NCBI GenBank assembly: GCA_023705905.1
Contig: BPTK01000006.1
Coordinates: 1-43,247 of the forward strand
Origin: Candidatus Heimdallarchaeota archaeon
GTDB taxonomy: Archaea > Asgardarchaeota > Heimdallarchaeia > Heimdallarchaeales > Heimdallarchaeaceae
DNA length: 43,247 nt
Direction: 5' to 3'
Positions 11,951-34,523 of this stretch are shown piece after piece; within the stretch, counting starts at the first letter, position 1; each line of letters begins with the position of its first letter. The notes under the pieces are model-generated. The model did not search any database. It saw nothing but the letters and a program-made list of their open reading frames with translations, and was not told the DNA's origin. The position numbers and the translations under genes are program-made.

Positions 11951-12021
11951 GGCAGTTTCTTTCTTGTTGTCTTTTAGTATCTTTCTCCTCTTCTAAGTGT
12001 AACTAATAGAGTGATGCAAAG
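11951..12021 (+). promoter_or_regulatory. Conserved leader of peptide gene 1
   Basis: A run of about 70 bases is nearly identical to 13854-13923 (GGCAGTTTCTTTCTTGTTG, CTTTTAGTATCTTTCTCC, CTAATAGAGTGATGCAAA). It contains a TATA-like TTTTAGTAT and a ribosome-binding site GTGAT at 12011-12015, seven bases before the ATG. Confidence 0.65.
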
Positions 12022-12090
12022 ATGACAAAACAAACATATGATCCTGAAGATGGAGATGAATCGTTAACCCCTCCCCTATGGTGGCCTTAG
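12022..12090 (+). CDS. Small acidic peptide 1 (YDP...PPLWWP family)
   Basis: A 22-residue peptide opens with MTKQ, continues YDPEDGDESL and ends TPPLWWP. Residues 6-13 give the acidic core and the last six the Trp/Pro tail shared by eight such genes in this window. There is no signal peptide and no membrane segment. The start is fixed by GTGAT seven bases upstream and by the match in length to the sister genes. It lies 75 bases before TPR gene 1. Function unknown; a signal or regulatory peptide for the neighbouring TPR protein is my inference. Such short genes are usually missed by gene callers. Confidence 0.85.
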   Translation: MTKQTYDPEDGDESLTPPLWWP

Positions 12091-12132
12091 ATGGCTACCT
12101 TATATTAACTTTTTATAATAATATTATCATCC

Positions 12133-12153
12133 TTTATAAACGAATTTGCGGAT
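12133..12153 (+). promoter_or_regulatory. Promoter of TPR gene 1
   Basis: TTTATAAA at 12133-12140 is followed by CGAATTT and GCGGAT at 12148-12153. The same arrangement precedes TPR genes 2, 3 and 5. The expected transcript start is about 12160-12165, making the mRNA nearly leaderless. Confidence 0.7.
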
Positions 12154-12165
12154 TATAATGTGTGG

Positions 12166-13752
12166 ATGAGAATGGATAAGAAAATTGAGTTTGTAAACAC
12201 TGATTCACAGGAAGCATTAGAAACTGTGTTAAAAGACCTCCGTATTTTATCATGTAACAAAAAAGCAAATAGTCAAGTTATTAGGGTACTTGACAGAGCA
12301 ATTTCAAAAGTTAAAGAGACAAACTCTAAAAAAATCTTATTCAATCTTTATAGTTTAAAGATTACCCAAATTCATCATTTAAAATCAAAAATTCAAGAAA
12401 TTACCCAAATTATTGATGAAATGTGGCTTCTTCTTGAAGGTCTTGATTATGCTGAAGGTTATGCCTTATACTATTCGCATCTATGGTATATTGAAAAAAT
12501 TCAAGGCAATAAGAAGAAAGCAAAAATATACATCGATAAATTAGCAGAAAATCTTAATGAGAGTAATATTAAAGATGAATTCGTATATTATACATGTAAA
12601 TATACATACGCTATTGAAAAATGGTTTGAAGAACATGATTCTGAAAGCGCGGCAATTCTAGAAGGGTGTGCGGAATACTTTTTCAAGGAGGGGTTCTACA
12701 GGAGTTTGGCTCAAACTTTTGCTTTTTTGAGCGTTATTTATACTAGAAAACATAAAAATAAAAAAGCGTTAAAACTAGGAAATGAAATTCTTGCAAATCG
12801 AACTCTCTTTGAGAAGTTACCACCTGATATAAGAGGAATAGTCTATTATTTCATGGGTCTAGGTCATATGTTAGAAGCTAACTTAGTGATTGCTGAATCG
12901 TATTTCAATGAAGCTTACTTTATTCTAAAACCTATTTTCAGTGACAATATATATTTCAGCAATTCCATTATATTACATTCATATCTTGCTACTGTAAAAG
13001 GCTTGCAGGGTAAAACAGATCAAGCTAATGTTCTAGCCAACGAAGCGTATATTCTTCTCCAAACAGATTATATAAAGACTAATTTGGATAAAGTTACAGA
13101 AAAACAAATTATTCATACTCTCAATCTCGTAAAGTTCTACAATATTTCACGTTTAGGCAATTATAACCCTCAGGATCATCAGAAGCTTATTGAGGAGATT
13201 ATTGATAATTGTAAAAACCTGTATAGTGATTTCATGACTCTTAGTGAGTTTATCCTTAGTGCCAATCTCGATTCAGTCAAACTTCAACAACTATTAGCAA
13301 TGGATAATTTCAGCATTAACCGTGTTAAGCATCTACTTGAGTTTATGCTTGAAAACCAAAAGATAGATACAGAGATAGGTAAAGAACAAAAGGCTTTGAA
13401 CTGTATTGCTATTTTGGAAAAACGTATAATAACAACCAAGACTACATTCATGGAAAATGCCTATACAGATCTCCTTATTGCTCAACAAATGTTCACTCTT
13501 AAGCGGTATGCTGAAATTTCTTCTCTTCTCAAGCAGTATGAAAGTAGGCCTCATAGAATTGAAGTCTTAGAGGTGCGTATCTTCATGGAAGCTTTCATCC
13601 AAGTAGGAGCGTATAAAAATGGTGACCCTCTTGGCCCTGCTTTACAATATATGGCCATTAAAAAATGCAGACTCCATGGTTTCTCTAGATTGGAAAACAA
13701 ACTACTACATTACTTACAACTGCAACATAAGGAGAGAACAAGAACAATATAG
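12166..13752 (+). CDS. TPR-like helical protein 1 of the peptide cassette
   Basis: About 528 residues from ATG 12166; GTG 12160 and ATG 12172 are also in frame. It is all-helical, with TPR-like repeats such as GIVYYFMGLGHMLEANLVIA and YLATVKGLQGKTDQANVLA near the middle. Family landmarks are an N-terminal LFNLYSLKITQIHHL block, a central HTLNLVKFY..SRL block near 325, and a strongly conserved end from about 445 containing GDPLGPALQYMAIKKCR (about 484-500) and GFSRLENKLL. No DNA-binding domain, signal peptide or membrane segment is visible, so it is probably a cytosolic peptide- or protein-binding regulator. The Rap/RRNPP comparison rests on TPR architecture and linkage to the peptide gene only. 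Confidence 0.8.
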   Translation: MRMDKKIEFVNTDSQEALETVLKDLRILSCNKKANSQVIRVLDRAISKVKETNSKKILFNLYSLKITQIHHLKSKIQEITQIIDEMWLLLEGLDYAEGYALYYSHLWYIEKIQGNKKKAKIYIDKLAENLNESNIKDEFVYYTCKYTYAIEKWFEEHDSESAAILEGCAEYFFKEGFYRSLAQTFAFLSVIYTRKHKNKKALKLGNEILANRTLFEKLPPDIRGIVYYFMGLGHMLEANLVIAESYFNEAYFILKPIFSDNIYFSNSIILHSYLATVKGLQGKTDQANVLANEAYILLQTDYIKTNLDKVTEKQIIHTLNLVKFYNISRLGNYNPQDHQKLIEEIIDNCKNLYSDFMTLSEFILSANLDSVKLQQLLAMDNFSINRVKHLLEFMLENQKIDTEIGKEQKALNCIAILEKRIITTKTTFMENAYTDLLIAQQMFTLKRYAEISSLLKQYESRPHRIEVLEVRIFMEAFIQVGAYKNGDPLGPALQYMAIKKCRLHGFSRLENKLLHYLQLQHKERTRTI

Positions 13753-13760
13753 AATCCCAA

Positions 13761-13800
13761 GGAGGGGTTCCTATGTTCTTTGGAGGTTTTTCTTTTTGTC
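13761..13800 (+). terminator. Terminator module after TPR gene 1
   Basis: GGAGGGGTTCCTATGTTC, TTTGGAGG and TTTTTCTTTTTGTC match the T-rich end of the 219-329 and 10622-10732 modules. It sits eight bases after the stop codon. Confidence 0.7.
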
Positions 13801-13853
13801 ACACAACTAAAACAGTTTTTGTGGATAATATAACTAGAAAAAGAGGGGGATTG

Positions 13854-13923
13854 GCAGTTTCTTTCTTGTTGTCTTTTAGTATCTTTCTCCTCTTCTAAGT
13901 ACAACTAATAGAGTGATGCAAAA
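13854..13923 (+). promoter_or_regulatory. Conserved leader of peptide gene 2
   Basis: It differs from the leader at 11951-12021 by only a few bases and includes the same GAGTGATG ribosome-binding site just before the ATG. The near identity shows a recent tandem duplication of the whole cassette. Confidence 0.65.
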
Positions 13924-13995
13924 ATGAAACAATTATATGATCCAGATGGAGAACCTGGCGACGATGACATAGGACCACCTTTGTGGCATCCTTAA
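13924..13995 (+). CDS. Small acidic peptide 2 (YDP...PPLWHP family)
   Basis: A 23-residue peptide: MKQL, then YDPDGEPGDDDI, then GPPLWHP. It has two extra residues in the acidic centre compared with peptide 3. GTGAT lies eight bases before the ATG. TPR gene 2 starts 70 bases after its stop. Cytosolic by sequence; function unknown. Confidence 0.85.
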   Translation: MKQLYDPDGEPGDDDIGPPLWHP

Positions 13996-14029
13996 TTTTT
14001 TTATTAACAACGCTAAAATATTACCCTCC

Positions 14030-14050
14030 TTTATAAATCAATTTTCGGAT
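14030..14050 (+). promoter_or_regulatory. Promoter of TPR gene 2
   Basis: TTTATAAA at 14030-14037 and TTTTCGGAT ending at 14050 match the promoter of TPR gene 1 base for base at most positions. The ATG at 14066 lies close to the predicted transcript start. Confidence 0.7.
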
Positions 14051-14065
14051 ATATTGTCGAAGGTT

Positions 14066-15658
14066 ATGGTTAATATTGATGTATTTGACACTATAAAGGA
14101 AAAACTAAGTTTGGTAGAAACAAAAGATGATTTCAAAACTGTTTTCAAATTAGTGCAGATATTAGCATCTAATGAGCGCTCGAACAAAGATGTAATGGCA
14201 CTACTTGATGATGGAATAAGAAAAGCTGTTTTTCTAGAAGATAATGAATCCTTGGTTAATCTATATGGTCTAAAAATATTGCAATTAGAGCATTTAAAGA
14301 CAAATATACCCACTATTTCAGAACTGCTAATTGAAATGCACAAAATAGCTAAAAAGTATGATTACAATGAAGGATTAGCGTTTTATTACTCATTCGTCTG
14401 GTATATTGAAAAGTTTAAGGGAGAACAAGTAAAAAGTAAACAAGCTATCTTAAAAGCGATAGAGATTCTATCTCAAGCTGAGAAGAAAAATGAATATGTT
14501 TACCATTTTGTTAGATATTCTTACGCTATAGAACAATGGACAACCAATCATGATGAAGATTGCGTGGAGATTTTTGAAGAGTGTTTACTATATTACTACA
14601 ATAGTAATTTTCACAGAAGTGCAGTCCAAACTTTAGGTCTTTTAGGGATTATCTATCAACAAACTCAAAACAGAAAAAAGGCTTCTAATGCTTCTAAACA
14701 AGTATTTAATAATAATTATTTCTTTGATCAACAACCTGAAGATGTTAAGGCTATAGCATATTATCTTGCAGGAGTAAGCCAACTATTAGAACACAATCTT
14801 GGACAAGCGGGTTATTTGTGCAGTGAATCCTATAATCTACTAAACAACAAATTGCATCATAGCAATTTCTATTCTTATTATATTGCCAGATTGCTATCTC
14901 ACTTAGCCATTGTTCATGCATTGCAAGGTAAACTTGAACTATCATTTGAAAACATTACAAAAATTGAAGATTTGCTTGATGATGATTGTATTAAGAATGG
15001 TATGGGTAACAACAGTATAGAACAAGTATATCATACATTAAATTTAATCAAATTCTATGTTTATTCACGATTATTTGGTTTTAAGGTAGAAAAAGTTCAA
15101 ACCCTTATAAGTAAAATATACCAAGGAATTTCAAATAATTACAGTGATTCTATACTTCTTAGCGAATTTATATTAAACGCAAAATTAGATAGTGAGCAAC
15201 TTAAAAAATTGACAAATACAACCAATGCAAGTTTACAAAGAATTAAACACATCTTAGAATACACTCTAATAAAATCAAGCAATAATTTAGAAATTAAAAC
15301 AGATTCTCTTATAAGTATACTTAGTAAAAAACAAAAAATCAAGAACTTCACTTTTATTGAGGAAGCTCATTCTGATTTGCTACTAGCTCAAGAATTATTC
15401 TCTGAAAAAAGATATGCTGAAATCTCTTCTCTTCTCAAACAATATGAGAATAGACTTCATCAGATTGAAGTTTTAGAGATGCGGATCTTCATGGAAGCGT
15501 TCATTCAAGTTGGAGCGTATAAGAATGGTGACCCTCTTGGTCCAGCTTTGCAATACATGGCAATAAAGAAATGTAGAAATCATGGATTCTCCCGATTAGA
15601 AAATAAACTACTGAATTACTTACAATTGCAGCATAAGGAGATTGCAAGACCGATATAG
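14066..15658 (+). CDS. TPR-like helical protein 2 of the peptide cassette
   Basis: About 530 residues from ATG 14066 (TTG 14054 is in frame but lies at or before the predicted transcript start). The N-terminal half is clearly diverged from TPR protein 1, while the last 85 residues are nearly identical (RYAEISSLLKQYENRLHQIE, GDPLGPALQYMAIKKCR, GFSRLENKLLNYLQLQHKE). Other shared blocks are NLYGLKILQLEHLK near 72-85 and HTLNLIKFYVYSRL near 330. The repeat unit AIAYYLAGVSQLLEHNLGQA is TPR-like. The pattern of a variable front and a fixed end suggests different inputs feeding the same output or partner. Confidence 0.8.
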   Translation: MVNIDVFDTIKEKLSLVETKDDFKTVFKLVQILASNERSNKDVMALLDDGIRKAVFLEDNESLVNLYGLKILQLEHLKTNIPTISELLIEMHKIAKKYDYNEGLAFYYSFVWYIEKFKGEQVKSKQAILKAIEILSQAEKKNEYVYHFVRYSYAIEQWTTNHDEDCVEIFEECLLYYYNSNFHRSAVQTLGLLGIIYQQTQNRKKASNASKQVFNNNYFFDQQPEDVKAIAYYLAGVSQLLEHNLGQAGYLCSESYNLLNNKLHHSNFYSYYIARLLSHLAIVHALQGKLELSFENITKIEDLLDDDCIKNGMGNNSIEQVYHTLNLIKFYVYSRLFGFKVEKVQTLISKIYQGISNNYSDSILLSEFILNAKLDSEQLKKLTNTTNASLQRIKHILEYTLIKSSNNLEIKTDSLISILSKKQKIKNFTFIEEAHSDLLLAQELFSEKRYAEISSLLKQYENRLHQIEVLEMRIFMEAFIQVGAYKNGDPLGPALQYMAIKKCRNHGFSRLENKLLNYLQLQHKEIARPI

Positions 15659-15668
15659 AATAAAGTTT

Positions 15669-15705
15669 AGGGATTCCTATATTCTTTTGGGGTTTTTTCT
15701 TTACT
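15669..15705 (+). terminator. Terminator module after TPR gene 2
   Basis: GGGATTCCTATATTC, TTTTGGGG and TTTTTTCTTTACTC are a diverged form of the module after TPR gene 1, ten bases after the stop codon. Confidence 0.6.
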
Positions 15706-15820
15706 CAGAAATTTTCTCTTATTATTTTTAGATACTATTCTCTTCAGACCCCGGGTTTATTCCCTGTATATTTTTGTAAAAGTGTAAATTCTCCCTTTAG
15801 ATATAAGTTCTAAGTTCTTC

Positions 15821-16156: not shown

Positions 16157-16236
16157 AGTATTTACATGTGTGAAATAGTGGTTTAAAAAGATTGACGAAA
16201 GGGTGTCTCAAACTAACCAAAATCCTTTTTTTATTT

Positions 16237-16270
16237 TCTTACCACATTAATAATATTTTGCGTGGTAAGA
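16237..16270. terminator. Hairpin of the TCTTACCAC family
   Basis: TCTTACCAC at 16237-16245 pairs with GTGGTAAGA at 16262-16270 across a 16-base AT-rich loop. The same stem occurs twice at 32272-32393. Here it lies just past the stop of the molybdopterin oxidoreductase (minus strand), so a terminator is likely, though it could also be a palindromic protein-binding site. Confidence 0.55.
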
Positions 16271-16327
16271 TTTTCTTAACTCTTTGATTTTTCCCATTCA
16301 GCACAAAAAACATTGTTTCCTATTGGT

Positions 16328-23684: not shown

Positions 23685-24020
23685 AATGAAACAATCATCA
23701 ATAACACTAACAAAAAAGGATATAATGTACAACAATTATGTCTATCTAGCGAAGTTTTCTCGTGTGGGATTGGACTTATTGGTGTAGACCCTTGAATGAT
23801 AATCTCATCTCGAAACTTCGCTATCCATATTTTTTAGTAGCTGAATTGTTCTTTTTACTGGTTGTTTTAATGGGTTACAACCGTTTAATGAGATAATACT
23901 ATAGGTATTATTACATTCATTACTACATCTTTATGCTACGTTCAACCTTGTTGGTATCTTTAATCTTTTTTAGAAAATACTTGTTTTGTTGATATTTCTA
24001 CCAGTAAAACTTCTCTTCTG
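23685..24020. other. Intergenic stretch with an 11-base inverted repeat
   Basis: TAGCGAAGTTT at 23747-23757 is perfectly complementary to AAACTTCGCTA at 23813-23823, enclosing 55 bases. A smaller hairpin GGTTGT/ACAACC lies near 23862-23885. No open reading frame of note. A tRNA was considered and rejected. It may be a structured RNA, a terminator of the pilin gene or a recombination scar. Confidence 0.5.
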
Positions 24021-24092
24021 ACAGTTTCTTTCTTGTTGTCTTTTAGTATGTTATTACACTTCTAAGTACAACTTAATGAGTGATGAACAACC
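24021..24092 (+). promoter_or_regulatory. Conserved leader of peptide gene 3
   Basis: It shares ACAGTTTCTTTCTTGTTG and CTTTTAGTAT with the leaders of peptides 1 and 2, then diverges before the common ending GAGTGATG about nine bases before the ATG. Confidence 0.6.
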
Positions 24093-24158
24093 ATGAACCA
24101 AAAATATGATCCTGAAGATGGAGATGAATCGATACTTCCGCCCTTGTGGCACCCTTAA
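24093..24158 (+). CDS. Small acidic peptide 3 (YDP...PPLWHP family)
   Basis: A 21-residue peptide: MNQK, YDPEDGDESI, LPPLWHP. The acidic block is identical to that of peptide 1. An ATG at 24083 in another frame runs to a stop within nine codons and is ignored. TPR gene 3 follows after about 165 bases, the longest gap of the set. Confidence 0.85.
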   Translation: MNQKYDPEDGDESILPPLWHP

Positions 24159-24312: not shown

Positions 24313-24324
24313 TAGATATTGAAA

Positions 24325-24930
24325 ATGGACATAAGAGCAGTAATCGATAGTATTGAAGAGAAATTAAAAGCAGTCTCATCAAATAAACAAATGAAAGAAA
24401 TTGTTACAGATTTACGTATTGTAATATCCAATAATCGTTCATCATCAGAACTAATGGAAACAACTAAAAAGGCAATAAGTACTGCTCTAGAATTAGGTTA
24501 TAACAAAGATTTAACCAATCTTTACGGACTTTTAATTCTACAATTAGAACATTGTGAGGAGAATTTGGTTGAAGTTTCTTTATTAATAGAGAAAATGCAA
24601 CAATTAGCAAAAAGCACCGGATGTCAAGAAAGTATTGCCTTAACGTATGCCTATTTATGGTATCATGAAAAAATCAAGGGTAATAGTAAACAAAGCAAAG
24701 ATGCAATTTTGAAAGCAAAAAGAATATTTGAGAATCTACAGAAGTACGATAGCTATAATTACTATTTTGTCCTTTATTCTTATGCCGTAGAGATTTGGTT
24801 ACACAGTCATGATTCACAGAGTACTAAACTTCTTGAAGAATGCGCTAATTTTTTCTATCGAGAAGGATATTATAGAAGCTTAGCTCAAACTTTTAGCCTT
24901 CTAAGTATTATGTATACTAGAACAGCATGA
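24325..24930 (+). CDS. TPR-like protein 3, N-terminal part (gene broken by a frameshift)
   Basis: Residues match the first 200 or so of TPR proteins 1 and 2: NLYGLLILQLEHC, YAYLWYHEKIKGNSKQSKDA, LEECANFFYREGYYRSLAQTF. The frame ends in TGA at 24928 right after MYTRTA. In the other frame the following bases read QHEGKRALNMSNIILANR, which continues the family alignment, so a single base was lost or two gained near 24918-24924. The start is ATG 24325; TTG 24319 is also in frame. Either the gene is inactive in this strain or the assembly has an error here. Confidence 0.75.
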   Translation: MDIRAVIDSIEEKLKAVSSNKQMKEIVTDLRIVISNNRSSSELMETTKKAISTALELGYNKDLTNLYGLLILQLEHCEENLVEVSLLIEKMQQLAKSTGCQESIALTYAYLWYHEKIKGNSKQSKDAILKAKRIFENLQKYDSYNYYFVLYSYAVEIWLHSHDSQSTKLLEECANFFYREGYYRSLAQTFSLLSIMYTRTA

Positions 24931-24949
24931 GGGCAAGAGAGCTTTAAAC

Positions 24950-25927
24950 ATGAGTAACATAATTCTCGCCAATAGATCTCTTTTCGAAAATCTACCTGTT
25001 GATGTTAAAGGCATTATCTACTACTTTACAGGTTTAGGATATTTGTTAGATACTAATTTAGCTACTTCAGAATCATATTTCGATGAAGCTTACAACATCC
25101 TTAAACCAATTTACAAGGATAGTATCTATTTTGCTTATTATCTTGTCTTACTTTCTTATCTTGCTACAGTAAGAGGTTTACAAGGGAAAACTGAGCTATC
25201 TGTAGATATGGTTAAAGAATCAGAAGCTCTTCTTCAAACAGAATTTATTGAGAAATACCTGGATAAAAATACTAAGAAACAAATTACTCATACACACAAT
25301 TTAATAAAATTCTATAATTTATCACGTTTAAGCAATTATAACTCTCAAGAAAATCAAGAATTACAAGAGGAAATCAATGAAGGTTGTAAGGTTCATTATA
25401 GTGAGTTCATGACCTTTAGTGAGTTCATCCTTAACTCTAATCTTGATTCTGATAAACTTCACTTATTGTTATCGATTGATAATTTCAGCATTAATCGAGT
25501 AAAACATCTAATTGAATTCATGCTAGAAAAGAAAAAACTGGAAACAGAAATTAGTCAAGAACAAAAGATTTTGAATTGTATAGCTATTCTGAGAAATAGA
25601 GTAAATTCAGGCAAAACCACATTTATAGAACATTCCTCTGCAGATTTCCTTATAGCTCAGCAATTATTTTCACTTAAACGGTATGCAGAAATTTCTCCTC
25701 TTTTGAAGAAATATGAAAGTAGACTCCATAAAATAGAGGTTCTAGAAATGCGGATCTTCATGGAGGCTTTTATACAAGTGGGGGCATATAAAAATGGAGA
25801 TCCTCTCGGTCCTGCTCTCCAATACATGGCTATCAAGAAATGCAGAAATTATGGTTTCAGTAGATTAGAAAATAAATTGTTGAATTACTTACAATTGCAG
25901 CAAAAAGAAATATCAAGATTAATGTAG
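24950..25927 (+). CDS. TPR-like protein 3, C-terminal part (gene broken by a frameshift)
   Basis: The 325-residue continuation of the broken gene begins within the family block MSNIILANRSLFENLPVDVKG. It keeps all later landmarks: YYFTGLGYLLDTNLATSESY, HTHNLIKFYNLSRL, KRYAEISPLLKKYESRLHKI, GDPLGPALQYMAIKKCR and GFSRLENKLLNYLQLQQKE. The preserved frame over 970 bases means the damage is recent or an artefact. The ATG at 24950 is internal and probably not a true start; no ribosome-binding site precedes it. Confidence 0.75.
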   Translation: MSNIILANRSLFENLPVDVKGIIYYFTGLGYLLDTNLATSESYFDEAYNILKPIYKDSIYFAYYLVLLSYLATVRGLQGKTELSVDMVKESEALLQTEFIEKYLDKNTKKQITHTHNLIKFYNLSRLSNYNSQENQELQEEINEGCKVHYSEFMTFSEFILNSNLDSDKLHLLLSIDNFSINRVKHLIEFMLEKKKLETEISQEQKILNCIAILRNRVNSGKTTFIEHSSADFLIAQQLFSLKRYAEISPLLKKYESRLHKIEVLEMRIFMEAFIQVGAYKNGDPLGPALQYMAIKKCRNYGFSRLENKLLNYLQLQQKEISRLM

Positions 25928-25942
25928 AACACAAGAGAACGA

Positions 25943-26026: not shown

Positions 26027-26094
26027 ATGAAAACAATACTTGACCCTGAAGATGGAGACGAAAGTATAACCCCCCACTTTGGTCTCCACACTGA
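26027..26094 (+). pseudogene. Small acidic peptide 4, frameshifted, upstream of the ABC transporter
   Basis: It reads MKTI, LDPEDGDESIT, then leaves the family frame at a run of six C (26070-26075). With seven C it would end TPPLWSPH and stop at 26092-26094. As written, the frame continues for several more codons into a Phe-rich tail. The usual GTGATG site is replaced by TAATGATAGACG. It precedes the ABC transporter, not a TPR gene. The C-run may vary between cells, be a sequencing error, or mark a dead copy. Confidence 0.65.
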
Positions 26095-26255: not shown

Positions 26256-27104
26256 ATGGAACAAATCGTTCGCTTCGCTAATGTATCAAAGAAGTTTCAA
26301 TTATTCTGGGAAGAATTAGTAATACTTAAAAAAATAGACCTAGAAATAGATAGAGATGAATTGGTATTATTGTATGGTCCAAGCGGAAGTGGGAAAACAA
26401 CACTATTGAACATATTAACTGGTCTTTTGCACCCAAATGAGGGAGAAATAGAAGTAGCTGGATTGTATATAGATCTTATAGAAGATAGAGAAAAAGCTGA
26501 TTTTCGCTCAAACTACCTTGGTATTGTTTTTCAAGAAAATAATCTAGTATCCACACTTACTGTAAAAGAAAATATCATCCTGTTCCAAGAACTTTGTGGT
26601 TTTGATGGGGAGGAAGAAGAAAGAGAAAAAAAGATTGATAAATTACTAAAGAGATTAAAGATAGATAATAGGAAAGATAGTTTTCCGGCACAATTGAGTG
26701 GAGGAGAAAAGAAACGTGTGGCAATAGCAAGAGCACTATCCAATAACCCATATATACTAATTTTAGATGAACCTACAGGAAATTTAGATCGCGAATCAGC
26801 AGATGTGCTCTGTAACTTAATTAATGAGATTTTCACAACAACGGATATCACAGTAATTGTTTCATCACATGATCAAAAAATGAAGGAGATTGCATCAACA
26901 ATATACAAAATAGGTTCACAAGGAGTAGTTCTTGAAGAAGAACATCCTGAAAGAAGAAAAAAGGATGACATCAAGTATAGAATCATTAGCTCTATGGAAA
27001 CACAAGAGGAAGGAACTGGATCAAATGATGACTATACAGAGAAAGAAATAATGGACATGACAGAAGAAGAAATAGATTTCATAGAAGAAGAACAAGAAAA
27101 CTAG
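26256..27104 (+). CDS. ABC transporter ATP-binding protein (MacB/LolD type)
   Basis: The 282-residue ATPase subunit drives a FtsX-type exporter or lipoprotein/peptide extruder at the membrane. Motifs in order: Walker A GPSGSGKTT (41-49), Q-loop FQENN (about 94), signature LSGGEKKRVAIARAL (about 147-161), Walker B ILILDEPTGNLD (about 165-176), and H-loop SSHDQK (about 205). The last 55 residues are an unusual acidic, charged extension (EEHPERRKKDD and EEEIDFIEEEQEN). It is apparently leaderless, with GGTTTATTAC about 30 bases upstream. The permease follows after 19 bases, so the two form an operon. The upstream peptide gene ties it to the cassette family. Confidence 0.9.
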   Translation: MEQIVRFANVSKKFQLFWEELVILKKIDLEIDRDELVLLYGPSGSGKTTLLNILTGLLHPNEGEIEVAGLYIDLIEDREKADFRSNYLGIVFQENNLVSTLTVKENIILFQELCGFDGEEEEREKKIDKLLKRLKIDNRKDSFPAQLSGGEKKRVAIARALSNNPYILILDEPTGNLDRESADVLCNLINEIFTTTDITVIVSSHDQKMKEIASTIYKIGSQGVVLEEEHPERRKKDDIKYRIISSMETQEEGTGSNDDYTEKEIMDMTEEEIDFIEEEQEN

Positions 27105-27123
27105 ACGTGGGAGCGAGATAGAG

Positions 27124-28935
27124 ATGATAGGACAACTGAAGTTTGCTTGGATTGATTTTAGAAGGTCGTTCCTAAGCTCATTGTTTACCTTCATTAGCCA
27201 AATAATAACCTATTCAGCTATTACAATCAGTATAGGGTTATTTTCATTGATGAGAGCTAATCACCTAATGTCATTGAATTATGTATACTTCAGCTCGTAC
27301 ACATTAATTACCATGTTTTTCATAGTGATTTGTATAATAATAGGAGTAATAGTAACTATTAGATCAATAGATCTTAAGTTTCAAAGTCAAAAAGACGATA
27401 TAGCTGTGATGAAAAATGTAGGAGGAAAAAGCAGGTGGATATACAGTTATTTCATCTTCAATCAGATTTTAACAGCAATAATCATGTTAATTCTAGGGAT
27501 GATTCTAGGATTAATTGTTCTAACCATAACAAGTATTTCTTTTGGATTGGGAAGCATTTTTAGCTATGTAGGGTTCCTTCCAATACTAGGGGGAAACATA
27601 GTAATATTGGTTTTTTCTTACCTTAAAGCACATTATACTATATTAAAATTCATTAGTGAAAAAGACTTTGAAATATCTTCCAGCAGTTTAAGTAGCTACA
27701 AAAGCATCTTTGAATTTGACGCAGTAATAAACAAGTTTACTTCATCTGTAAAGCTAGGTATAAAGAATTTCCTAAGATCAGGAAAAGTGTTGTCTAGTTT
27801 TCTATTTAGCTTCTTCCTTATATTCTCATCAATTTCTTTCGTTTTGGGACCACTAACAGTTGCTGAAACATATTATGTAAATTTGAATGGTAGATTTCAA
27901 GATTACTCATATGTTATAGGAGCACCAGATGCAATAGATTTCTTTAATCAGAGTTTACCAGTACAAGAATATAGTAATAGTTCTTACACTGGATTAGATA
28001 ATGATCTAGAACATTTCTATGATACTTCAATAGCAACTCAACTATTGACGGAATTAGGGGGAATAAACGTAACGTATCAGAAGTATTTCATTTCAAAATT
28101 GCAAATACAAGAAGTGTCAGCGTATGAGATAGTGAACGATATATACGTGCCAATAGGTCAAGATCGAAGAGTATATGCTACAATAATAGGATATGAAAAT
28201 ATCAATTTTGAAGAAAATGAATATATAGCAGGAATCAACCCAAACCCTTCGAGAGATGAAGTTTTAATCGGTGACAGCTTAGAAGCTAGGTTTTTTGATA
28301 ATAGCACCCTTCAAAAATTGAAATTGTACGGTGATTCAAATGATTACCAAATTAGTGGTGTAGTGATAGATAGCTTTGCAGCAGGATACAGTGTTTATTG
28401 CCCACTGAATAAATTAATCTCAGAAGGAGTAGCTAATGGGACTAATCTGCTAATGTTAGAGAACATAGACTCAGCAGTTTATGAGGAAATAAGTGAGATT
28501 CTAGAAGGATATGAATATCAAATAGTAAGTATGGAAAGAATGATAGAGCAAGGTCTAGCAAATTATAACAGTTTTACAACTATGTTTAAAGTGCTGGGAG
28601 GAATAATGTTCGCAATATTCTCATTCCAAGTAATAGTATATTCATTCCTGTATTTCTTAACATATAGAAAGGATTTCGAACTACTCTATAGGCTAGGAAT
28701 TAAAAAGAAAAGTATATACGGATCAGTAATTACAGCAATACTTCTGCAAATCATTCCAGGTATAGCACTAGGAAGCTATTTCGGAGCAATAATAGGAAGA
28801 TATTTTCTAGTGCCGTATGCGGTATTATCGAACTTTCCAGTAATAATCATAGCAGTAATAGTAGGATTCATACTAATAGCAACAACAACTTCAATCTATG
28901 CAAGTAAAAAAGGGCTGGAAAAAGTGATAGTATAA
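27124..28935 (+). CDS. FtsX/MacB-type ABC permease
   Basis: The 603-residue permease has three membrane segments near the N-terminus (about 15-45, 58-80, 110-140), a fourth at about 145-165 and one near 220-245 (SSFLFSFFLIFSSISFVLG). A 250-residue predicted outside domain follows (about 245-490), then three C-terminal segments (MFAIFSFQVIVYSFLYFL, SVITAILLQIIPGIALGSYF, VIIIAVIVGFILIATTT). This is the doubled FtsX layout with the conserved cytoplasmic DIAVMKNVGGKSRWIY and DFELLYRLGIKKKSIYG coupling loops. It is expected to partner the ATPase upstream and export or extract a peptide or lipid-linked substrate. The substrate is unknown; the YDP peptides are one possibility raised only by position. 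Confidence 0.85.
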   Translation: MIGQLKFAWIDFRRSFLSSLFTFISQIITYSAITISIGLFSLMRANHLMSLNYVYFSSYTLITMFFIVICIIIGVIVTIRSIDLKFQSQKDDIAVMKNVGGKSRWIYSYFIFNQILTAIIMLILGMILGLIVLTITSISFGLGSIFSYVGFLPILGGNIVILVFSYLKAHYTILKFISEKDFEISSSSLSSYKSIFEFDAVINKFTSSVKLGIKNFLRSGKVLSSFLFSFFLIFSSISFVLGPLTVAETYYVNLNGRFQDYSYVIGAPDAIDFFNQSLPVQEYSNSSYTGLDNDLEHFYDTSIATQLLTELGGINVTYQKYFISKLQIQEVSAYEIVNDIYVPIGQDRRVYATIIGYENINFEENEYIAGINPNPSRDEVLIGDSLEARFFDNSTLQKLKLYGDSNDYQISGVVIDSFAAGYSVYCPLNKLISEGVANGTNLLMLENIDSAVYEEISEILEGYEYQIVSMERMIEQGLANYNSFTTMFKVLGGIMFAIFSFQVIVYSFLYFLTYRKDFELLYRLGIKKKSIYGSVITAILLQIIPGIALGSYFGAIIGRYFLVPYAVLSNFPVIIIAVIVGFILIATTTSIYASKKGLEKVIV

Positions 28936-29070: not shown

Positions 29071-29136
29071 ATGAAACAAATATATGATCCTGAACCTGGT
29101 GATGATGATATTGGCCCGCCTTTATGGTGGCCATAA
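29071..29136 (+). CDS. Small acidic peptide 5 (YDP...PPLWWP family)
   Basis: A 21-residue peptide: MKQI, YDPEPGDDDI, GPPLWWP. It is the first of two peptide genes in tandem before TPR gene 4. The tail equals that of peptide 1 and the centre resembles peptide 2. Confidence 0.85.
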   Translation: MKQIYDPEPGDDDIGPPLWWP

Positions 29137-29242: not shown

Positions 29243-29311
29243 TATGAAATGTAAATATGATCCTGATGGGGATGGCGATGAGGATATTGGCCCGCCTCTA
29301 TGGCGGCCATG
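29243..29311 (+). CDS. Small acidic peptide 6 (YDP...PPLWRP family)
   Basis: A 22-residue peptide: MKCK, YDPDGDGDEDI, GPPLWRP. It has the only Cys in the set (residue 3), and Arg before the final Pro. TPR gene 4 starts 120 bases after the stop. Confidence 0.85.
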
Positions 29312-29431
29312 AGTTAATATCATAATTTCTTTTTTTTTTGTAATTACAAAGAACATAAATGAAGAACTGTAAAGAAAATGCAATTTCCTTCAAAGAGTAT
29401 TTAAAAACAAACTATTATTTCAACAGGTTAG

Positions 29432-31027
29432 GTGTATAAATTGTGTTATAAATCCTTTATTCGCAAATTAAATGTAATTAACATGAAAGAAGATTTACAG
29501 AAATATGTAATAGAATTGCGCGTTTTTGCTTCTAATAACAAATTTGAGAAAGCAGTCACCGAGCTCATAGAGGAAACAATAAGAAAAGCAGAAACCATTG
29601 ATGATAAAAAATCTCTTGTAGATTTATATGAATTAAAAATATCTCAAATAGAACATCTTCATGACAGTTATGATCAGATATTACAATTATTGCTACTTAT
29701 GAGAGAGTTGTCTTTAGAAATCGATTACAAGGAAGGTTTGGCCCTCTCTTATAATGTAGAGTGGTATATTGAGAAATTTAAAGGAAATAAAGCTAAGAGT
29801 AAAAATGCTATAGATTTGTCAATTATAACTCTAGTAAATCACAAAGAATATGATAACTATAGCTACGTTACTTGTTATTATTCATACGCAGTTGAACTGT
29901 GGTTAGAAGAAAATAATCCACAAAGTGCCTCTATACTTGAAGAATGTGTTGATTTCTTCTATAAAGAGGGATTTTACAGAAGTTTAGTACAATCATTAGC
30001 TGTATTATTTGTAATTTATCAGGAAACTCAAAATAAGAAGGGAGCGTTGAAGGTAACACAAAAACTGCTAAGTAATAAAATTCCTTTTGACAATCTCCCT
30101 CGTGACATTCAAGCTATTTCTTACTATTTTGTAGGTTTAAGTCATAAATTACAACTTAATCTATCATTGGCAGAGAAATATTTGGAAAAAGCAAGAAGAA
30201 TTCTCAAAGAAACGCTTGAAAAAAACATATATTCATTTTATTATATACCTGTATTAACACACCTTTCTACAGTGTTAGCGTTACAAGGTAAAATTGAACA
30301 AGCTCTAGAATTAATAAAAACAGCAGAAATTCTACTTCAAGGTAAAATCTTCTCAAATTATTCTGATCCAATAAGTCGTAGACAAATAAACCATTCTTTC
30401 AATTTGGTTAATTTTTATATCAAATCTAGGATACATGAAAGTACGTGTGATGAAATTATAGATCTTATTGATAATATCTATACCGATTGTAAGATAAATT
30501 ATAGTAACGCGATTATTCTAACAGAATTCTTACTAAATGCTAACTTAAATTATGAACAACTAAAAGAATTAAAAAGCACCAATAATGCCAGTTTAGAAAG
30601 AGTAAGACATATTATTATTTTCTTAATTGCAAAAGAAAAAGGTAAAGATAAAGCAGATGAAGAACAAAATTACTTGGACAGGATAGAAGTTCTTCGAGAA
30701 AGATTCAAGATAAATAAGATGACTTTCATTGAAAAAGCCTATGCAGACTTACTTATTGCTCAACAATTATTTTCACTTAAACAATTCGCAGAGATTTATG
30801 TTATTCTTAAGAAATATAAAAAACAAATTAATAGAATAGAAGTGCTGGAATTGCGTATATTTATGGAAGGATTTATTCAAGTTGGTGCATATAAGTCTGG
30901 AGATCCTCTGGGACCAGCATTACAATATATGGCAATAAAGAAATGTAGACAATATGGGTTCAGCAGATTGGAAAATACGTTGTTAAATTATCTAGATATG
31001 CAGAGAAAGGAAATTTACCAATTCTAA
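29432..31027 (+). CDS. TPR-like helical protein 4 of the peptide cassette
   Basis: 531 residues from GTG 29432. The start is supported because residues 7-26 align with the other family members (KSFIRKLNVINMKEDLQKYV) and because TATTTAAAAAC at 29398-29408 lies about 27 bases upstream; the ATG at 29483 would cut conserved sequence. Landmarks: DLYELKISQIEHL, LEECVDFFYKEGFYRSLVQ, HSFNLVNFYIKSRI, and the C-terminal GDPLGPALQYMAIKKCR with GFSRLENTLLNYLDMQ. It lacks the CGGAT promoter element of its sisters, so it may be regulated differently. Two peptide genes precede it. Confidence 0.8.
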   Translation: MYKLCYKSFIRKLNVINMKEDLQKYVIELRVFASNNKFEKAVTELIEETIRKAETIDDKKSLVDLYELKISQIEHLHDSYDQILQLLLLMRELSLEIDYKEGLALSYNVEWYIEKFKGNKAKSKNAIDLSIITLVNHKEYDNYSYVTCYYSYAVELWLEENNPQSASILEECVDFFYKEGFYRSLVQSLAVLFVIYQETQNKKGALKVTQKLLSNKIPFDNLPRDIQAISYYFVGLSHKLQLNLSLAEKYLEKARRILKETLEKNIYSFYYIPVLTHLSTVLALQGKIEQALELIKTAEILLQGKIFSNYSDPISRRQINHSFNLVNFYIKSRIHESTCDEIIDLIDNIYTDCKINYSNAIILTEFLLNANLNYEQLKELKSTNNASLERVRHIIIFLIAKEKGKDKADEEQNYLDRIEVLRERFKINKMTFIEKAYADLLIAQQLFSLKQFAEIYVILKKYKKQINRIEVLELRIFMEGFIQVGAYKSGDPLGPALQYMAIKKCRQYGFSRLENTLLNYLDMQRKEIYQF

Positions 31028-31128
31028 ACAAAAGCATTTTAAAACATTGGCAGATTTAGTAAAGAATGGAAAATGGTACTTATACAGGCAAACTGTAAAG
31101 GGAACAAATATCATTATCTGGTTCAGGA

Positions 31129-31431
31129 TCATGAAATTGGAACAAAATCCTTAGTTAACATTTTGTTGATCTCTCTTTGAGGGATCTCTTTAGCTTTTAA
31201 GCCTGCAACAAAGACACTAAGACATTCTTTACAATAGACTTTCTTAATTCTAGTATTATAAGTCAAGGGAGACATAAATTTACTCTTGCCACAGATCGTG
31301 CATCTATCATGAATACCTGATGTAATATCTGCTGTACAATCTTCGCAATAATTAACCTTACCTTGGACAGGACGTCCACACTTAGCACAGAAACGTACTC
31401 TAGTAACCATAGTATCGAGATTTCCGGTCAT
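31129..31431 (-). CDS. Small double zinc-ribbon protein
   Basis: 100 residues (or 93 from the second ATG). Two treble-clef or ribbon zinc sites are visible: CAKC...CEDC at about 15-32 and CTIC...CKEC at about 44-69. The rest is a short basic helix (LKAKEIPQREINKML). It is leaderless by appearance. Its start lies next to the candidate origin at 31482-31665, so a DNA- or RNA-binding role is plausible but not shown. No specific family recognised. Confidence 0.65.
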   Translation of the reverse strand: MTGNLDTMVTRVRFCAKCGRPVQGKVNYCEDCTADITSGIHDRCTICGKSKFMSPLTYNTRIKKVYCKECLSVFVAGLKAKEIPQREINKMLTKDFVPIS

Positions 31432-31481
31432 TAAAAGATTTTAAACATTTGTATAGTTAAATAAAAGCTGACAAGTATACA

Positions 31482-31665
31482 GACTCCCCTTTGTTTCTTG
31501 TGGAAGTGATATTTATTGTACATATTATGGAAAAAAGTATGATATAGGTTAATTGTACATAGTCTCCCAATAAAAGAAAAATGATGATTATATAAGTCTT
31601 TCTATATTTAATGCAGAAAAAAGTTATTTATATAGATAATAGTCTCCAATGGAACTGGTGGGGTC
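31482..31665. other. Candidate replication origin A with inverted ORB elements
   Basis: GACTCCCCTTTGTTTCTTG with TGGAAG (31482-31506) is an ORB-like element on the minus strand: its complement reads CTTCCACAAGAAACAAAGGG. GTCTCCAATGGAACTGGTGG with GGTC (31642-31665) is one on the plus strand. Both G-runs point outward and about 135 bases of AT-rich sequence lie between them, the classic archaeal layout for Orc1/Cdc6 binding around an unwinding element. The zinc-ribbon and winged-helix genes diverge from it. Confidence 0.55.
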
Positions 31666-31795
31666 TGTCTAAATTTTAGTCGGAACAGTTTTTTGTTAAT
31701 ACGTATCTTTTTAATGGCCTATACCTAGACAAACGTGATATCTACCTTTAAATACAAATTAATGAGTAAACATAACAAGTAACAAAGTGAGTCTA

Positions 31796-32242
31796 ATGCC
31801 TAAAGAAATTACAATTAAACTGCCTGATGGGACGATCATAAGAATACCTTCAGGTGACACTGAGAGTTTAAAGACAACACTTGCTTTAGTTACTGGAAAA
31901 GAAGCCGTTTCTACTGAAGGAGAACGCGAACCAATTAAGATGAGCTCTATAACAGAATTACTTGGAGCTTCAATCATTGAAAGAGTTGCCAGTATAATCA
32001 GGAACCATTATCCTGAAAGTGATTGGTTTACCTCTAATGAAGTCTGTGAGTTGTATGAGATAGTGTTTAGAGAAGGAATAAAAATGAGCACTGTAAGTAC
32101 TTATCTTGCAAGATTGGCAGATGAGAATATGTTACATAGGAAAGGTAACGTCTCTCAACGATTGTATTCCGTAACCACCAAACTTCTTGAAATCTATGGT
32201 GAGTTAAAGATATTGGAAATCCCCCCTGATCTATTAAGATGA
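31796..32242 (+). CDS. Winged-helix protein beside candidate origin A
   Basis: About 148 residues from ATG 31796, which follows GTGAG by four bases; GTG 31787 is in frame. CTTTAAATAC at about 31746-31755 is the likely TATA box. Residues 1-30 form a small beta-rich piece (EITIKLPDGTIIRIPSGD). Residues 60-135 contain a winged helix (SDWFTSNEVCELYEIVFREG, KMSTVSTYLARLADENMLHR, then a wing GNVSQRLYSV). It is probably a DNA-binding regulator; its place at the origin hints at replication or local control, which is an inference. Confidence 0.65.
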   Translation: MPKEITIKLPDGTIIRIPSGDTESLKTTLALVTGKEAVSTEGEREPIKMSSITELLGASIIERVASIIRNHYPESDWFTSNEVCELYEIVFREGIKMSTVSTYLARLADENMLHRKGNVSQRLYSVTTKLLEIYGELKILEIPPDLLR

Positions 32243-32271
32243 TTTTGGACGAAAAACTTTTTTTTATTATT

Positions 32272-32307
32272 ATCTTACCACATGAATATATTTTTCTGTG
32301 GTAAGAT
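32272..32307. terminator. Hairpin of the ATCTTACCACA family, copy A
   Basis: ATCTTACCACA at 32272-32282 and TGTGGTAAGAT at 32297-32307 form an 11-base perfect stem with a 14-base AT-rich loop, followed by TTTTTCTTC. It lies 30 bases after the winged-helix gene and fits a terminator on the plus strand. Confidence 0.6.
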
Positions 32308-32357
32308 TTTTCTTCTGTCTTATTTTTCCATATATGGATCTTCGATGTCACTTTATT

Positions 32358-32393
32358 ATCTTACCACACTTTTAATATTTACTGTGGTAAGAT
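32358..32393. repeat. Hairpin of the ATCTTACCACA family, copy B
   Basis: The same 11-base stem as copy A (32358-32368 with 32383-32393) with a different 14-base loop, again followed by TTTT. Two identical stems 86 bases apart are more than one terminator needs. Confidence 0.6.
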
Positions 32394-32473
32394 TTTGTAT
32401 TCAATCGTTTCGGTGCCTGAAACAACTAATATCTCTCCCCTTTTATATAAAACTCAATAACTATAAATGGTCT

Positions 32474-32557
32474 TACTGTTTCTTTGTCTTATAATTTCCT
32501 TGTTGTTTTAGTACCTTCTTCCTCTCTCTAAGTATAACTAAATGAGTGATATAAACG
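32474..32557 (+). promoter_or_regulatory. Leader of peptide gene 7
   Basis: TTTCCTTGTTGTTTTAGTAC, CTCTAAGTATAACTAAATG and GAGTGAT correspond to the leader of peptides 1-3 with scattered changes. The ribosome-binding site lies seven bases before ATG 32558. Confidence 0.55.
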
Positions 32558-32629
32558 ATGATGAAAATGAAAACATATGATCCTGACGAAGTAGACGAAG
32601 AAATAGGTTCCCCCTTGTGGAGACCATAA
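32558..32629 (+). CDS. Small acidic peptide 7 (YDP...SPLWRP family)
   Basis: A 23-residue peptide from ATG 32558: MMKMKT, YDPDEVDEEI, GSPLWRP. In-frame ATGs at 32561 and 32567 would shorten it; spacing to GTGAT favours the first. It has Ser in place of the first Pro of the PPLW motif. It is the first of two peptide genes before TPR gene 5. Confidence 0.8.
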   Translation: MMKMKTYDPDEVDEEIGSPLWRP

Positions 32630-32784
32630 TCTCTCCCACGTCTTCTTTATTGTTTTTTTTTATTCTATGAAAATGCAATTTAATCACTGTTTCGTGGGAA
32701 GAGACGATTTTGTCATCTTCTTCCTTGAGGTGTTTTAATAGCTTTCTTCTATTAATATGGTAACCCTTTCCTAGATGATGTATT

Positions 32785-32856
32785 ATGTACAAACCAAAAT
32801 ATGATCCTGATGAAGGAGATGAAGGAATACTTCCTCCTGCCTGGTCTCCAGGTTAA
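32785..32856 (+). CDS. Small acidic peptide 8 (YDP...PPAWSPG variant)
   Basis: A 23-residue peptide: MYKPK, YDPDEGDEGI, LPPAWSPG. It is the most diverged tail: Ala for Leu before Trp and an extra C-terminal Gly. The upstream site is a weak GATGATG. It lies about 90 bases before TPR gene 5. Confidence 0.8.
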   Translation: MYKPKYDPDEGDEGILPPAWSPG

Positions 32857-32905
32857 CCCCCCTTTTTCTTTATTTTTCTTAGTTTGAACTCTAATATTAC
32901 CCTAG

Positions 32906-32926
32906 TTTATAAATCATTTTACGGAT
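32906..32926 (+). promoter_or_regulatory. Promoter of TPR gene 5
   Basis: TTTATAAA at 32906-32913 and ATTTTACGGAT ending at 32926, as before TPR genes 1-3. The promoter is intact although the gene behind it is frameshifted. Confidence 0.65.
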
Positions 32927-32946
32927 AAGATTTTGAGTGAGTTTAC

Positions 32947-33012
32947 ATGAAATTCAATAGTTTTACAGAAGAATTAAATAATATAAACACTTCTGATGCT
33001 TTAATAGCTTAA
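32947..33012 (+). pseudogene. TPR-like protein 5, N-terminal remnant before a frameshift
   Basis: ATG 32947 opens MKFNSFTEELNNINTSDALIA and then meets TAA at 33010. The family sequence resumes in another frame from about 33012 (INRIRPICANEKSTRINLF), so a one-base change near 32997-33011 broke the gene. Confidence 0.65.
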
Positions 33013-33125
33013 TAAATAGAATTCGTCCTATTTGTGCTAATGAGAAATCAACTCGTATTAACCTCTTTATAGACGATGCAATTAGAAGAAGTAAAAGATT
33101 CAGTGACAAGATAATTCTAGTAAAT

Positions 33126-34523
33126 TTGTATGATTTGAAAATTAGACAGCTTTATTCCTCTATAGCTGAGCTTCCCAAAATCCTTGAATTTCATTCAAAA
33201 ATGCATCTTTTATGTGAAGAGTTGAAATATGATGCAGGATTAGCACTTGTATTCCAGTTAGCTTGGCACATAGAAAAACTCGAAGGAAATATAAATAAAA
33301 GCTCAGAAAACATTAATAGGTCAATTGAAATTGTAAAAAAGTCTTCTTTTGTGGATGATTATACAAAGTATTTCTGTTTTTACTCATTTGCGGTAGAAAA
33401 CTGGTTAAAAAATCGTGAATTCTCTAGTTCTGAGATTCTTGAAGAATGTGTTATCTATTTTTATTCCAACGAATTTCATCATGGACTAGCTATGTCTTTA
33501 GGTATCTTAATCATCATTTATCAACAATCACAGAATAAGGAAGAATCAATGAAATTAATAAGAAGGATTCTCAGTGGTAGAAATCTTTTACTTAAAATGC
33601 CAAAAGAAATTCAATCGATCATTCATTTCTTTGTTGGCTTCAGTCACGAATTATGTTTCAATCTCAATGAAGCAGAAAAACAACTAATAGAAGCAATGAA
33701 CATCTTGAAACCTATTTACAAAAAAAGTATCTATTCAGGATATTATTTAACAACTCTCTCTCATTTGACTGCAACCTATGCCCTTCAAGGTAAACTAGAA
33801 CTAGCTCTCAAACAGCTGAAAGAGGTCGAAGGGTTAATTGAAGAGGGAATTACTACAAAAAATCTAGATTCTTTTAGTAAAAAGCAAATAATCCATACTT
33901 TCAATCTAGTAAAATTTTACGTTAAGTCGAGATTACAGAGTTTTCGAATTGAACAAGAGCAAGATTTGGTACAAATTATCTCTGACAACCTTAACAAATA
34001 TCACAGCAATGCCATATTTTTTGGTGAATTTCTCTTGAATTCTAATCTTAACAAAGAACAGTTAATAAAAGTAAGAGAGATGGATAATCCAAGTACTAAG
34101 AGGATAGAACACATTATCAATTTCCTAATTGACAAAACAATACAGACTGAAGAACAACGAATTATGAAATCTATTTCTATATTAAAAAAGAGACCTAGAG
34201 AAGCTAGAATGACTTATGTTGAAAGAGCATTCGCTGATTTGCTAGCAGCGCAAGAATATTACAAAATCAGTCGTTTTGCAGAGATATATCCTTTGTTAAA
34301 GAAATATGAAAATCATCCTCATAAAATAGAAGTTCTTGAAATGCGTGTTTTCATGGAAGCTTTTATCCAGGTTGGCAAATTCAAAAATGGTGATCCTTTA
34401 GGACCTGCTCTCCAATACATGGCTATTAAAAAATGCAGAAATTATGGTTTCAGTAGATTAGAAAATAAGTTGCTAGACTATTTAGATATGCAACGAAGAG
34501 ATATTCAGTCCCTAACACTATAA
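33126..34523 (+). CDS. TPR-like helical protein 5 (main part of a frameshifted gene)
   Basis: 465 residues are open from TTG 33126, but the family match starts upstream at about 33012 in the same frame, so this is the body of a gene that began at ATG 32947. Landmarks: NLYDLKIRQLYSSI, LEECVIYFYSNEFHHGLAMS, HTFNLVKFYVKSRL, GDPLGPALQYMAIKKCR, GFSRLENKLLDYLDMQRRD. Apart from the one indel, the frame is clean for 1.5 kb, which argues for recent damage, a sequencing error or programmed frameshifting. Confidence 0.75.
   Translation: MYDLKIRQLYSSIAELPKILEFHSKMHLLCEELKYDAGLALVFQLAWHIEKLEGNINKSSENINRSIEIVKKSSFVDDYTKYFCFYSFAVENWLKNREFSSSEILEECVIYFYSNEFHHGLAMSLGILIIIYQQSQNKEESMKLIRRILSGRNLLLKMPKEIQSIIHFFVGFSHELCFNLNEAEKQLIEAMNILKPIYKKSIYSGYYLTTLSHLTATYALQGKLELALKQLKEVEGLIEEGITTKNLDSFSKKQIIHTFNLVKFYVKSRLQSFRIEQEQDLVQIISDNLNKYHSNAIFFGEFLLNSNLNKEQLIKVREMDNPSTKRIEHIINFLIDKTIQTEEQRIMKSISILKKRPREARMTYVERAFADLLAAQEYYKISRFAEIYPLLKKYENHPHKIEVLEMRVFMEAFIQVGKFKNGDPLGPALQYMAIKKCRNYGFSRLENKLLDYLDMQRRDIQSLTL

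Follow-up and report, generated by a model that had tools for sequence, protein, structure and literature searches.

What are very short genes doing directly in front of a family of tetratricopeptide repeat (TPR) proteins in an Asgard archaeon? The question is raised by contig BPTK01000006.1 of assembly GCA_023705905.1 (Candidatus Heimdallarchaeota archaeon), of which 43,247 nucleotides (nt) were analysed as the window. Between positions 11,951 and 34,523, small frames encoding acidic peptides (YDP...GDE...PPLWxP) accompany paralogous TPR genes, here called receptors. The genes form pairs, the peptide codons are under purifying selection, peptides and receptors have separate promoters, and the two covary according to specificity rules. 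An intact unit is very probably a dedicated ligand-receptor pair, in which the peptide would be read along the TPR groove and would switch a common partner. Because peptide and receptor change in step, position by position, this is probably a previously undescribed Heimdallarchaeal peptide-recognition system with a role in signalling.

Paired genes and their distribution

The window contains the following peptide genes, all on the + strand.

12022..12090, +: peptide 1, MTKQTYDPEDGDESLTPPLWWP; frame present; cognate of receptor 1, fitting its N272 and S68
13924..13995, +: peptide 2, MKQLYDPDGEPGDDDIGPPLWHP; frame present; cognate of receptor 2, fitting Y272 and G68/L72/E75
24093..24158, +: peptide 3, MNQKYDPEDGDESILPPLWHP; frame present; 5' of broken receptor 3
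26027..26094, +: peptide 4 remnant, LDPEDGDESITP, with the PPLWSPH tail out of frame; pseudogene 5' of an ABC transporter gene
29071..29136, +: peptide 5, MKQIYDPEPGDDDIGPPLWWP; distal; misfit to receptor 4 (W against E68)
29244..29312, +: peptide 6, MKCKYDPDGDGDEDIGPPLWRP; proximal; cognate of receptor 4 (R with E68/E75)
32558..32629, +: peptide 7, MMKMKTYDPDEVDEEIGSPLWRP; distal; frame present
32785..32856, +: peptide 8, MYKPKYDPDEGDEGILPPAWSPG; proximal; cognate of receptor 5 (H184/M188, D68/R72, F233)

The receptor genes are listed below; receptor residue numbers throughout are those of receptor 2.

12172..13752, +: receptor 1, TPR solenoid of about 526 residues; open from a GTG at 12160, with another ATG at 12166
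14066..15658, +: receptor 2, TPR solenoid of 530 residues; AlphaFold model all-helical, mean predicted local distance difference test (pLDDT) 89.0, predicted template modelling score (pTM) 0.88
24319..25927, +: receptor 3; frameshift near 24920, a pseudogene or an assembly error
29432..31027, +: receptor 4, TPR solenoid; paralogue of receptor 1
32947..34523, +: receptor 5, TPR solenoid; N-terminal stops or frameshift near 33005

An earlier reading made from the letters alone (the sequence-only reading) had listed eight peptide frames and five paralogous TPR genes. All eight frames are present, the sixth starting at 29244 and not at 29243, and the copy at 26027 is frameshifted as described, its PPLWSP tail lying in a different frame. 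The P-P-L-W-x-P tail that was said to be common to the peptides holds for most copies but not for copies 7 (SPLWRP) and 8 (PPAWSPG). The five TPR genes were also confirmed, with two of them damaged (24319-25927 and 32947-34523), and the paralogues are 38-67% identical to receptor 1. An ABC ATPase and FtsX-like permease (26256-28935) have the peptide 4 remnant on their 5' side, and this pair is conserved, in the same backbone, in 8-10 genomes.

The back-translated PPLWxP pattern had seven matches in the 3.7-Mb genome, compared to none for the reversed pattern. The seventh match lies outside the window on contig C250 (MYDPEPTDNESMPPLWSP), 5' of a receptor with just 21% identity to the query. Contig C23, also outside the window, has peptide MMKMYDPKDGDENILPPGWFPN 5' of another TPR homologue. 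A loose pattern of the peptide, run over 504 kb surrounding the receptor genes, had 121 matches, compared to 1 for the reversed pattern and 0-1 for shuffled sequence; these controls rule out chance or low complexity as the origin of the frames. One to three co-oriented peptides lie within 600 nt upstream of 71 of the 73 core receptor gene models (a count that includes fragments), and the expectation that peptide homologues would stand beside TPR homologues in related genomes was thereby borne out. In all, the catalogue has over 110 peptides and over 70 receptors.

Receptor homologues (E <= 1e-10) were present in 21 of the 59 genomes of the class, all 21 within one family, and exact PPLWxP-stop matches were common in that family and at background level in the rest of the 59. 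Scanning GTDB genomes with a single receptor protein gave 39 loci, all from Candidatus Heimdallarchaeota or the Asgard group, including AB_125. No homologue was found in IMG/VR viral contigs, and a viral origin was rejected on that ground. A phylum-wide search of 228 genomes for the peptide pattern returned scattered, chance-like matches without comparable concentration outside the family, and spread beyond one Heimdallarchaeota family was rejected accordingly. Because of this confinement, the searches place the peptide-TPR system as a lineage-specific heimdallarchaeal family.

Units are inserted at varying places within a conserved gene backbone, and their composition varies. A distant receptor subfamily (about 560 residues) tends to have its peptide convergent, downstream on the opposite strand (L097, L101, L105, L109, L121, L132, L140, L142). 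At L101, a perfect 114-nt inverted repeat (10875-10988 and 12805-12918) flanks the distant receptor gene, with an identical peptide (MYDPEPGDEDTLPPHWFP) in each arm, and could allow inversion. Another subfamily (L131, L133-L139) consists of TPR proteins of 549-573 residues in conserved positions; no peptide gene was detectable beside these receptors, possibly the ancestral state. Orphan peptides without a receptor also exist (e.g., L141). Lone copies of the conserved receptor C-terminal region occur at L177, L178, and L181 and are apparently truncated genes or contig ends.

A toxin-antitoxin or selfish addiction cassette would explain the copy number, turnover, and broken copies, and variable insertion into a conserved backbone, pseudogenes, and orphan peptides are consistent with it. 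Such a cassette is nevertheless improbable. The receptor is a plain solenoid, and NCBIfam and Pfam scans of the receptors found no relevant family and no enzymatic or toxin match (TPR_12 and TPR_MalT matches in Pfam were weak, below the curated cut-off). Orphan peptides and peptide-less receptors both persist, and the peptides are hydrophilic and not of the membrane-toxic type.

Selection, probable translation and promoters of the peptide genes

Over the core peptide codons (116 distinct DNA sequences, 2,542 same-length pairs), the proportion of synonymous differences (pS) was 0.70 and that of nonsynonymous differences (pN) was 0.26, which is the purifying selection that the sequence-only reading had anticipated. 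GTGA or GTTGA, complementary to the 16S rRNA 3' end (GGATCACCTCCT), stands directly 5' of the ATG in 87 of 117 peptides, with a spacing of mainly 3-7, and we infer that the peptides are translated. An element resembling TGTCA-N2-TTTCTTTC lies 70-75 nt before the peptide ATG in 75 of the 117 with at most one mismatch (0/117 in shuffles) and is followed by a TATA-like, T-rich box. Many receptor starts are preceded by a TTTATAAA box of their own. The corresponding sites in the window are as follows.

1-231: 16S rRNA 3' end (GGATCACCTCCT), source of the anti-Shine-Dalgarno used
11949..11966, +: peptide-promoter element TTGGCAGTTTCTTTCTTG, 5' of peptide 1
12133..12140, +: TATA-like box TTTATAAA between peptide 1 and receptor 1; candidate promoter of the receptor itself
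13851..13868, +: peptide-promoter element, 5' of peptide 2
14030..14037, +: TATA-like box TTTATAAA between peptide 2 and receptor 2
24018..24035, +: peptide-promoter element with 1 mismatch, 5' of peptide 3
32710..32727, +: peptide-promoter element with 1 mismatch, 5' of peptide 8

Because peptides have the TGTCA element and a TATA-like box and many receptors have their own TTTATAAA box, peptide and receptor are most likely separate transcription units. This arrangement bears on whether the peptide is a cis-acting leader (upstream open reading frame), at whose PPLWxP-stop the ribosome would stall and thereby control the downstream TPR gene. The location upstream of the receptor fits such a leader, and a proline-rich end before the stop codon occurs in some arrest peptides. 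A leader is still very improbable, since the TATA-like box of the receptor lies between peptide and receptor start, peptides of the distant subfamily are convergent and downstream on the other strand, orphan peptides have no receptor (L141), and covariation with inner-groove residues, described below, is not expected of it. An upstream-ORF attenuator was rejected on account of the separate promoters and the convergent orientation; with receptors carrying their own TATA-like boxes and some peptides convergent, the single transcript of ribosome-arrest leaders, upstream of the regulated gene, is not what is found here.

A variant of the element, TTTGTCACTTTCTTTCTTCAC, followed by a TATA-like box, also precedes unrelated genes encoding an amidohydrolase, a secreted hydrolase-like protein, and a zinc-ribbon protein (sites at G000:C13:8974-, G000:C97:7815+, G011:C302:7293+ and 9361+, and G006:C78:2932-). 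The TGTCA element thus does not define a regulon of peptide genes alone and may be part of a broader one. At L193 (G000:C250), a promoter element is followed by MTDHTYDLEEEEKSYCMSFVHF, possibly a decayed peptide gene. A repeated element, GGGGTTCCTAT(A/G)TTCTTTGGAGG followed by a T-run, occurs at window positions 293-330 and 13760-13800 and at L085, and is perhaps a terminator.

Covariation and the residue code

Receptor distance and nearest-peptide distance were correlated (Mantel r 0.67, 0/2000 permutations), and at 18 loci with more than one peptide the correlation was 0.52 for the near peptide and 0.28 for the far one. Site-by-site covariation was measured as mutual information with average product correction (APC) in 60 non-redundant pairs. 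Receptor residues 35-113 couple to the C-terminal tail of the peptide and to the position that follows W. The position preceding W is coupled to 184-192 and the acidic centre to 233-324, whereas the residues that follow DP have most of their couplings at 362-445. Peptide order therefore runs antiparallel to receptor position (rho -0.74, circular-shift P 0.004, 0/60 shuffled pairings). Inner (A) helices contain 17 of the top 20 couplings and B helices none (Fisher 5e-6), with the A-helix register set by the Pfam TPR_12 match at 164-213 and the helix lists made after a first look at the couplings.

Several couplings can be stated as residue rules, with changes counted on a receptor tree built without the tested columns. 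T stands before PP exactly when receptor residue 272 is N (63/63 pairs; six changes each), W follows W exactly with S68 (63/63 pairs, four changes), and G occupies the second acidic site exactly when residue 324 is D (63/63 pairs, six changes). R after W is found with E68 and E75 (7/9), H after W with G68-L72-E75 (9/9), A before W with M188 (10/11), and L, F, I, or M before W with Q188 (38/42). Because peptide and receptor covary in 63 pairs, we infer direct recognition of the peptide by the receptor.

Held-out matching was the unbiased test of this code. When training used only receptors more than 30, 45, or 52% divergent, the own peptide was ranked above others with an area under the curve (AUC) of 0.94, 0.92, and 0.85, respectively. 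Distal peptides reached an AUC of about 0.6, falling to 0.50 at training divergence above 52%. Fit to six simple rules was 0.99 for proximal peptides, 0.69 for distal peptides, and 0.75 for random pairs. The second, more distal peptide matches the local receptor at chance level. Linkage, selection, ordered covariation, rules, and held-out matching thus strongly support the earlier claim, that of a peptide acting on its TPR partner, for the nearest peptide but not for distal ones. Export or anti-repressor activity, as that reading also suggested, would be conjectural.

Shared ancestry of linked genes, without any binding, could be proposed as the source of the covariation, and the Mantel correlation is what neighbouring genes inherited together would give. 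This explanation is unlikely to suffice. Regional linkage alone is insufficient because it would make distal peptides match too, and these lie only about 200 nt farther away and show no match. The couplings are also ordered and confined to inner helices, the rules survive repeated independent changes, and held-out prediction holds across more than 45% divergence.

A tethered AlphaFold model was built from 12022-13749, in which peptide 1, the natural linker, and receptor 1 share a reading frame and stops were read as glycine. Peptide residues 11-20 had a pLDDT of 83, linker residues 25-49 were below 50, and pTM was 0.87, which suggests that peptide 1 docks on receptor 1. Several points weigh against direct recognition as the explanation of these results. 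The peptide pLDDT may be raised by the conserved peptide alignment rows themselves, and the model was read through its confidence scores. The rules were picked from the same pairs they describe, and independent-pair tests of the three perfect rules (4/4, 4/4, and 5/5 in the expected direction) are each too small for significance alone. All genomes are metagenome bins. Some of the coupling could come from recombination that joins a peptide to the neighbouring 5' portion of a receptor; this explains neither the ordered inner-helix pattern nor the distal-peptide misfit.

Proposed mechanism and relation to known systems

In the proposed mechanism, the peptide's own promoter would drive a short, unprocessed acidic peptide of about 18-22 residues. 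It would lie extended and antiparallel in the inner groove of the TPR solenoid encoded beside it, and the WxP at its C-terminus would meet the N-terminal repeats of the receptor. Inner-helix residues would decide which peptide is accepted, and for this reason up to about ten insulated pairs could operate per cell. Physical binding would most likely switch the contact of a surface at 440-525 with one common downstream partner, because all receptors share these near-invariant C-terminal residues (about 85).

Receptor residues 440-525 are 69-76% identical, compared to 40-43% elsewhere, whatever the peptide type. Third-base identity within genomes was just 0.54 for this region against 0.45, and gene conversion was rejected as its source; because the value is barely higher, the conservation is attributed mainly to purifying selection. 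As this region is conserved regardless of peptide type, the simplest reading is a common downstream partner for all receptors. A local target gene is disfavoured because units sit at differing places in the conserved backbone.

Whether such a ligand would act between cells or within one divides the ligand-receptor reading. An intercellular pheromone, which would leave the cell leaderless, enter neighbouring cells, and bind a cytoplasmic TPR receptor there as an Asgard counterpart of Rap/NprR/AimR or of the leaderless RopB systems, is quite possible, though we stop short of calling it probable. The pairing of adjacent genes fits this role, as do the numerous orthogonal paralogues in each genome and the resemblance of the solenoid to NprR and Rap, among other proteins, and leaderless peptides of Firmicutes are secreted and re-imported (PMC10518010). 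Purifying selection on distal and orphan peptides equals that on proximal ones (pN/pS 0.11 and 0.05, respectively, compared to 0.10; nearest relatives were used, which favours low pN, and all-pairs values agree) although distal ones mismatch the local receptor, a pattern to be expected of peptides intended for other cells. The best-matching receptor of distal and orphan peptides is usually in another genome, where more receptors are available. Against a pheromone, no peptide has a signal sequence or cleavage site, and no dedicated transporter or protease co-travels with the units. The ABC/FtsX pair near peptide 4 was rejected as a co-inherited exporter: it recurs in 8-10 genomes but is conserved backbone and stays where the receptor is absent (L141).

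The other sub-case is a strictly intracellular microprotein, a cofactor or inhibitor that would license or block the receptor and report the activity of its own promoter. We give it the same, less than even, probability as the pheromone. The peptides are without export signals, the common promoter element suggests joint control of all peptide genes, and ten paralogous pairs in one cytoplasm would likewise need specificity. On the other side, most of the 20 distal peptides tested had no well-matching receptor in their own genome, although these genomes have gaps and the choice of receptors outside them is larger. A more far-reaching and tentative proposal is an Asgard intercellular peptide language that evolved independently of RRNPP, with many insulated channels per genome and a readable code, in which emitted distal peptides would go unread by their own receptors and match receptors in related genomes.

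The proposed ligand-receptor pair resembles the RRNPPA systems (Rap-Phr, NprR-NprX, PlcR-PapR, AimR-AimP), in which a short peptide gene adjoins a TPR receptor gene and orthogonal paralogues have multiplied. The receptor is likewise a TPR solenoid by AlphaFold helical repeats, weak TPR_12 and TPR_MalT matches, and Foldseek matches; an inner-groove peptide is expected, and covariation, rules, and held-out matching point to specific recognition of the neighbouring peptide. The differences are considerable. The RRNPPA core consists of five TPRs, optionally with four more and an N-terminal helix-turn-helix (HTH) domain, i.e., 5 or 9 TPRs (PMC12700828), whereas the Heimdallarchaeal receptor models have 29 helices in about 12-13 pairs, and a family-library scan reported no HTH domain in 55 receptor-family members. 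RRNPPA peptides are made as propeptides with a secretion signal and cleavage sites and have 5-8 residues when mature, whereas the Heimdallarchaeal ligand of about 18 residues appears to be used over most of its length, covariation covering most of the peptide including the C-terminal residue. No hydrophobic leader or processing site was found in the Heimdallarchaeal peptides (18-27 residues). The receptors also have a conserved C-terminal output region, and their Foldseek matches are generic to TPR proteins, including NprR (5dbk, 4gpk), NprR-NprX, and Rap (4gyo, Rap-CSF), with a template modelling (TM) score of about 0.4. A profile search of PDB with the receptor found no RRNPP chain, and RRNPP homology by sequence or family libraries (NCBIfam, Pfam) was rejected. 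RRNPPA systems occur in Bacillota and their mobile elements, whereas the present system is archaeal and had no homologue in the IMG/VR viral contigs. The sequence-only reading was right to keep it apart from the Firmicutes RRNPP systems.

Leaderless communication peptides (SIP/RopB, LCP class) are similar in having an unprocessed tiny ORF without a leader beside a TPR-type receptor (PMC10518010). They are mostly 8-10 hydrophobic residues long, whereas the Heimdallarchaeal peptides have 18-24 residues and are strongly acidic and Pro-rich; RopB/Rgg receptors of Firmicutes carry a DNA-binding domain that the Asgard receptors do not have. Eukaryotic TPR receptors (APPBP2-degron, LGN-Inscuteable, and APC/C TPR subunits) share the solenoid fold and are among the best structural matches. 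LGN binds extended partners antiparallel. The ligands of these eukaryotic receptors, however, are parts of larger proteins and not separate peptides co-inherited with the receptor.

A literature search that was short on subscription papers and did not cover preprints found no description of an archaeal peptide-TPR receptor pair. To our knowledge, paired peptide ligands and TPR receptors were known from Bacillota and their phages, and the literature searched agrees. The pairing is now seen in archaea as well, in the group closest to eukaryotes, and its specificity code is so explicit that synthetic peptides could be used to test it. A further suggestion is that a whole solenoid can read a separately encoded peptide of about 18 residues over its full length, which would be useful for the design of orthogonal peptide-binding proteins.

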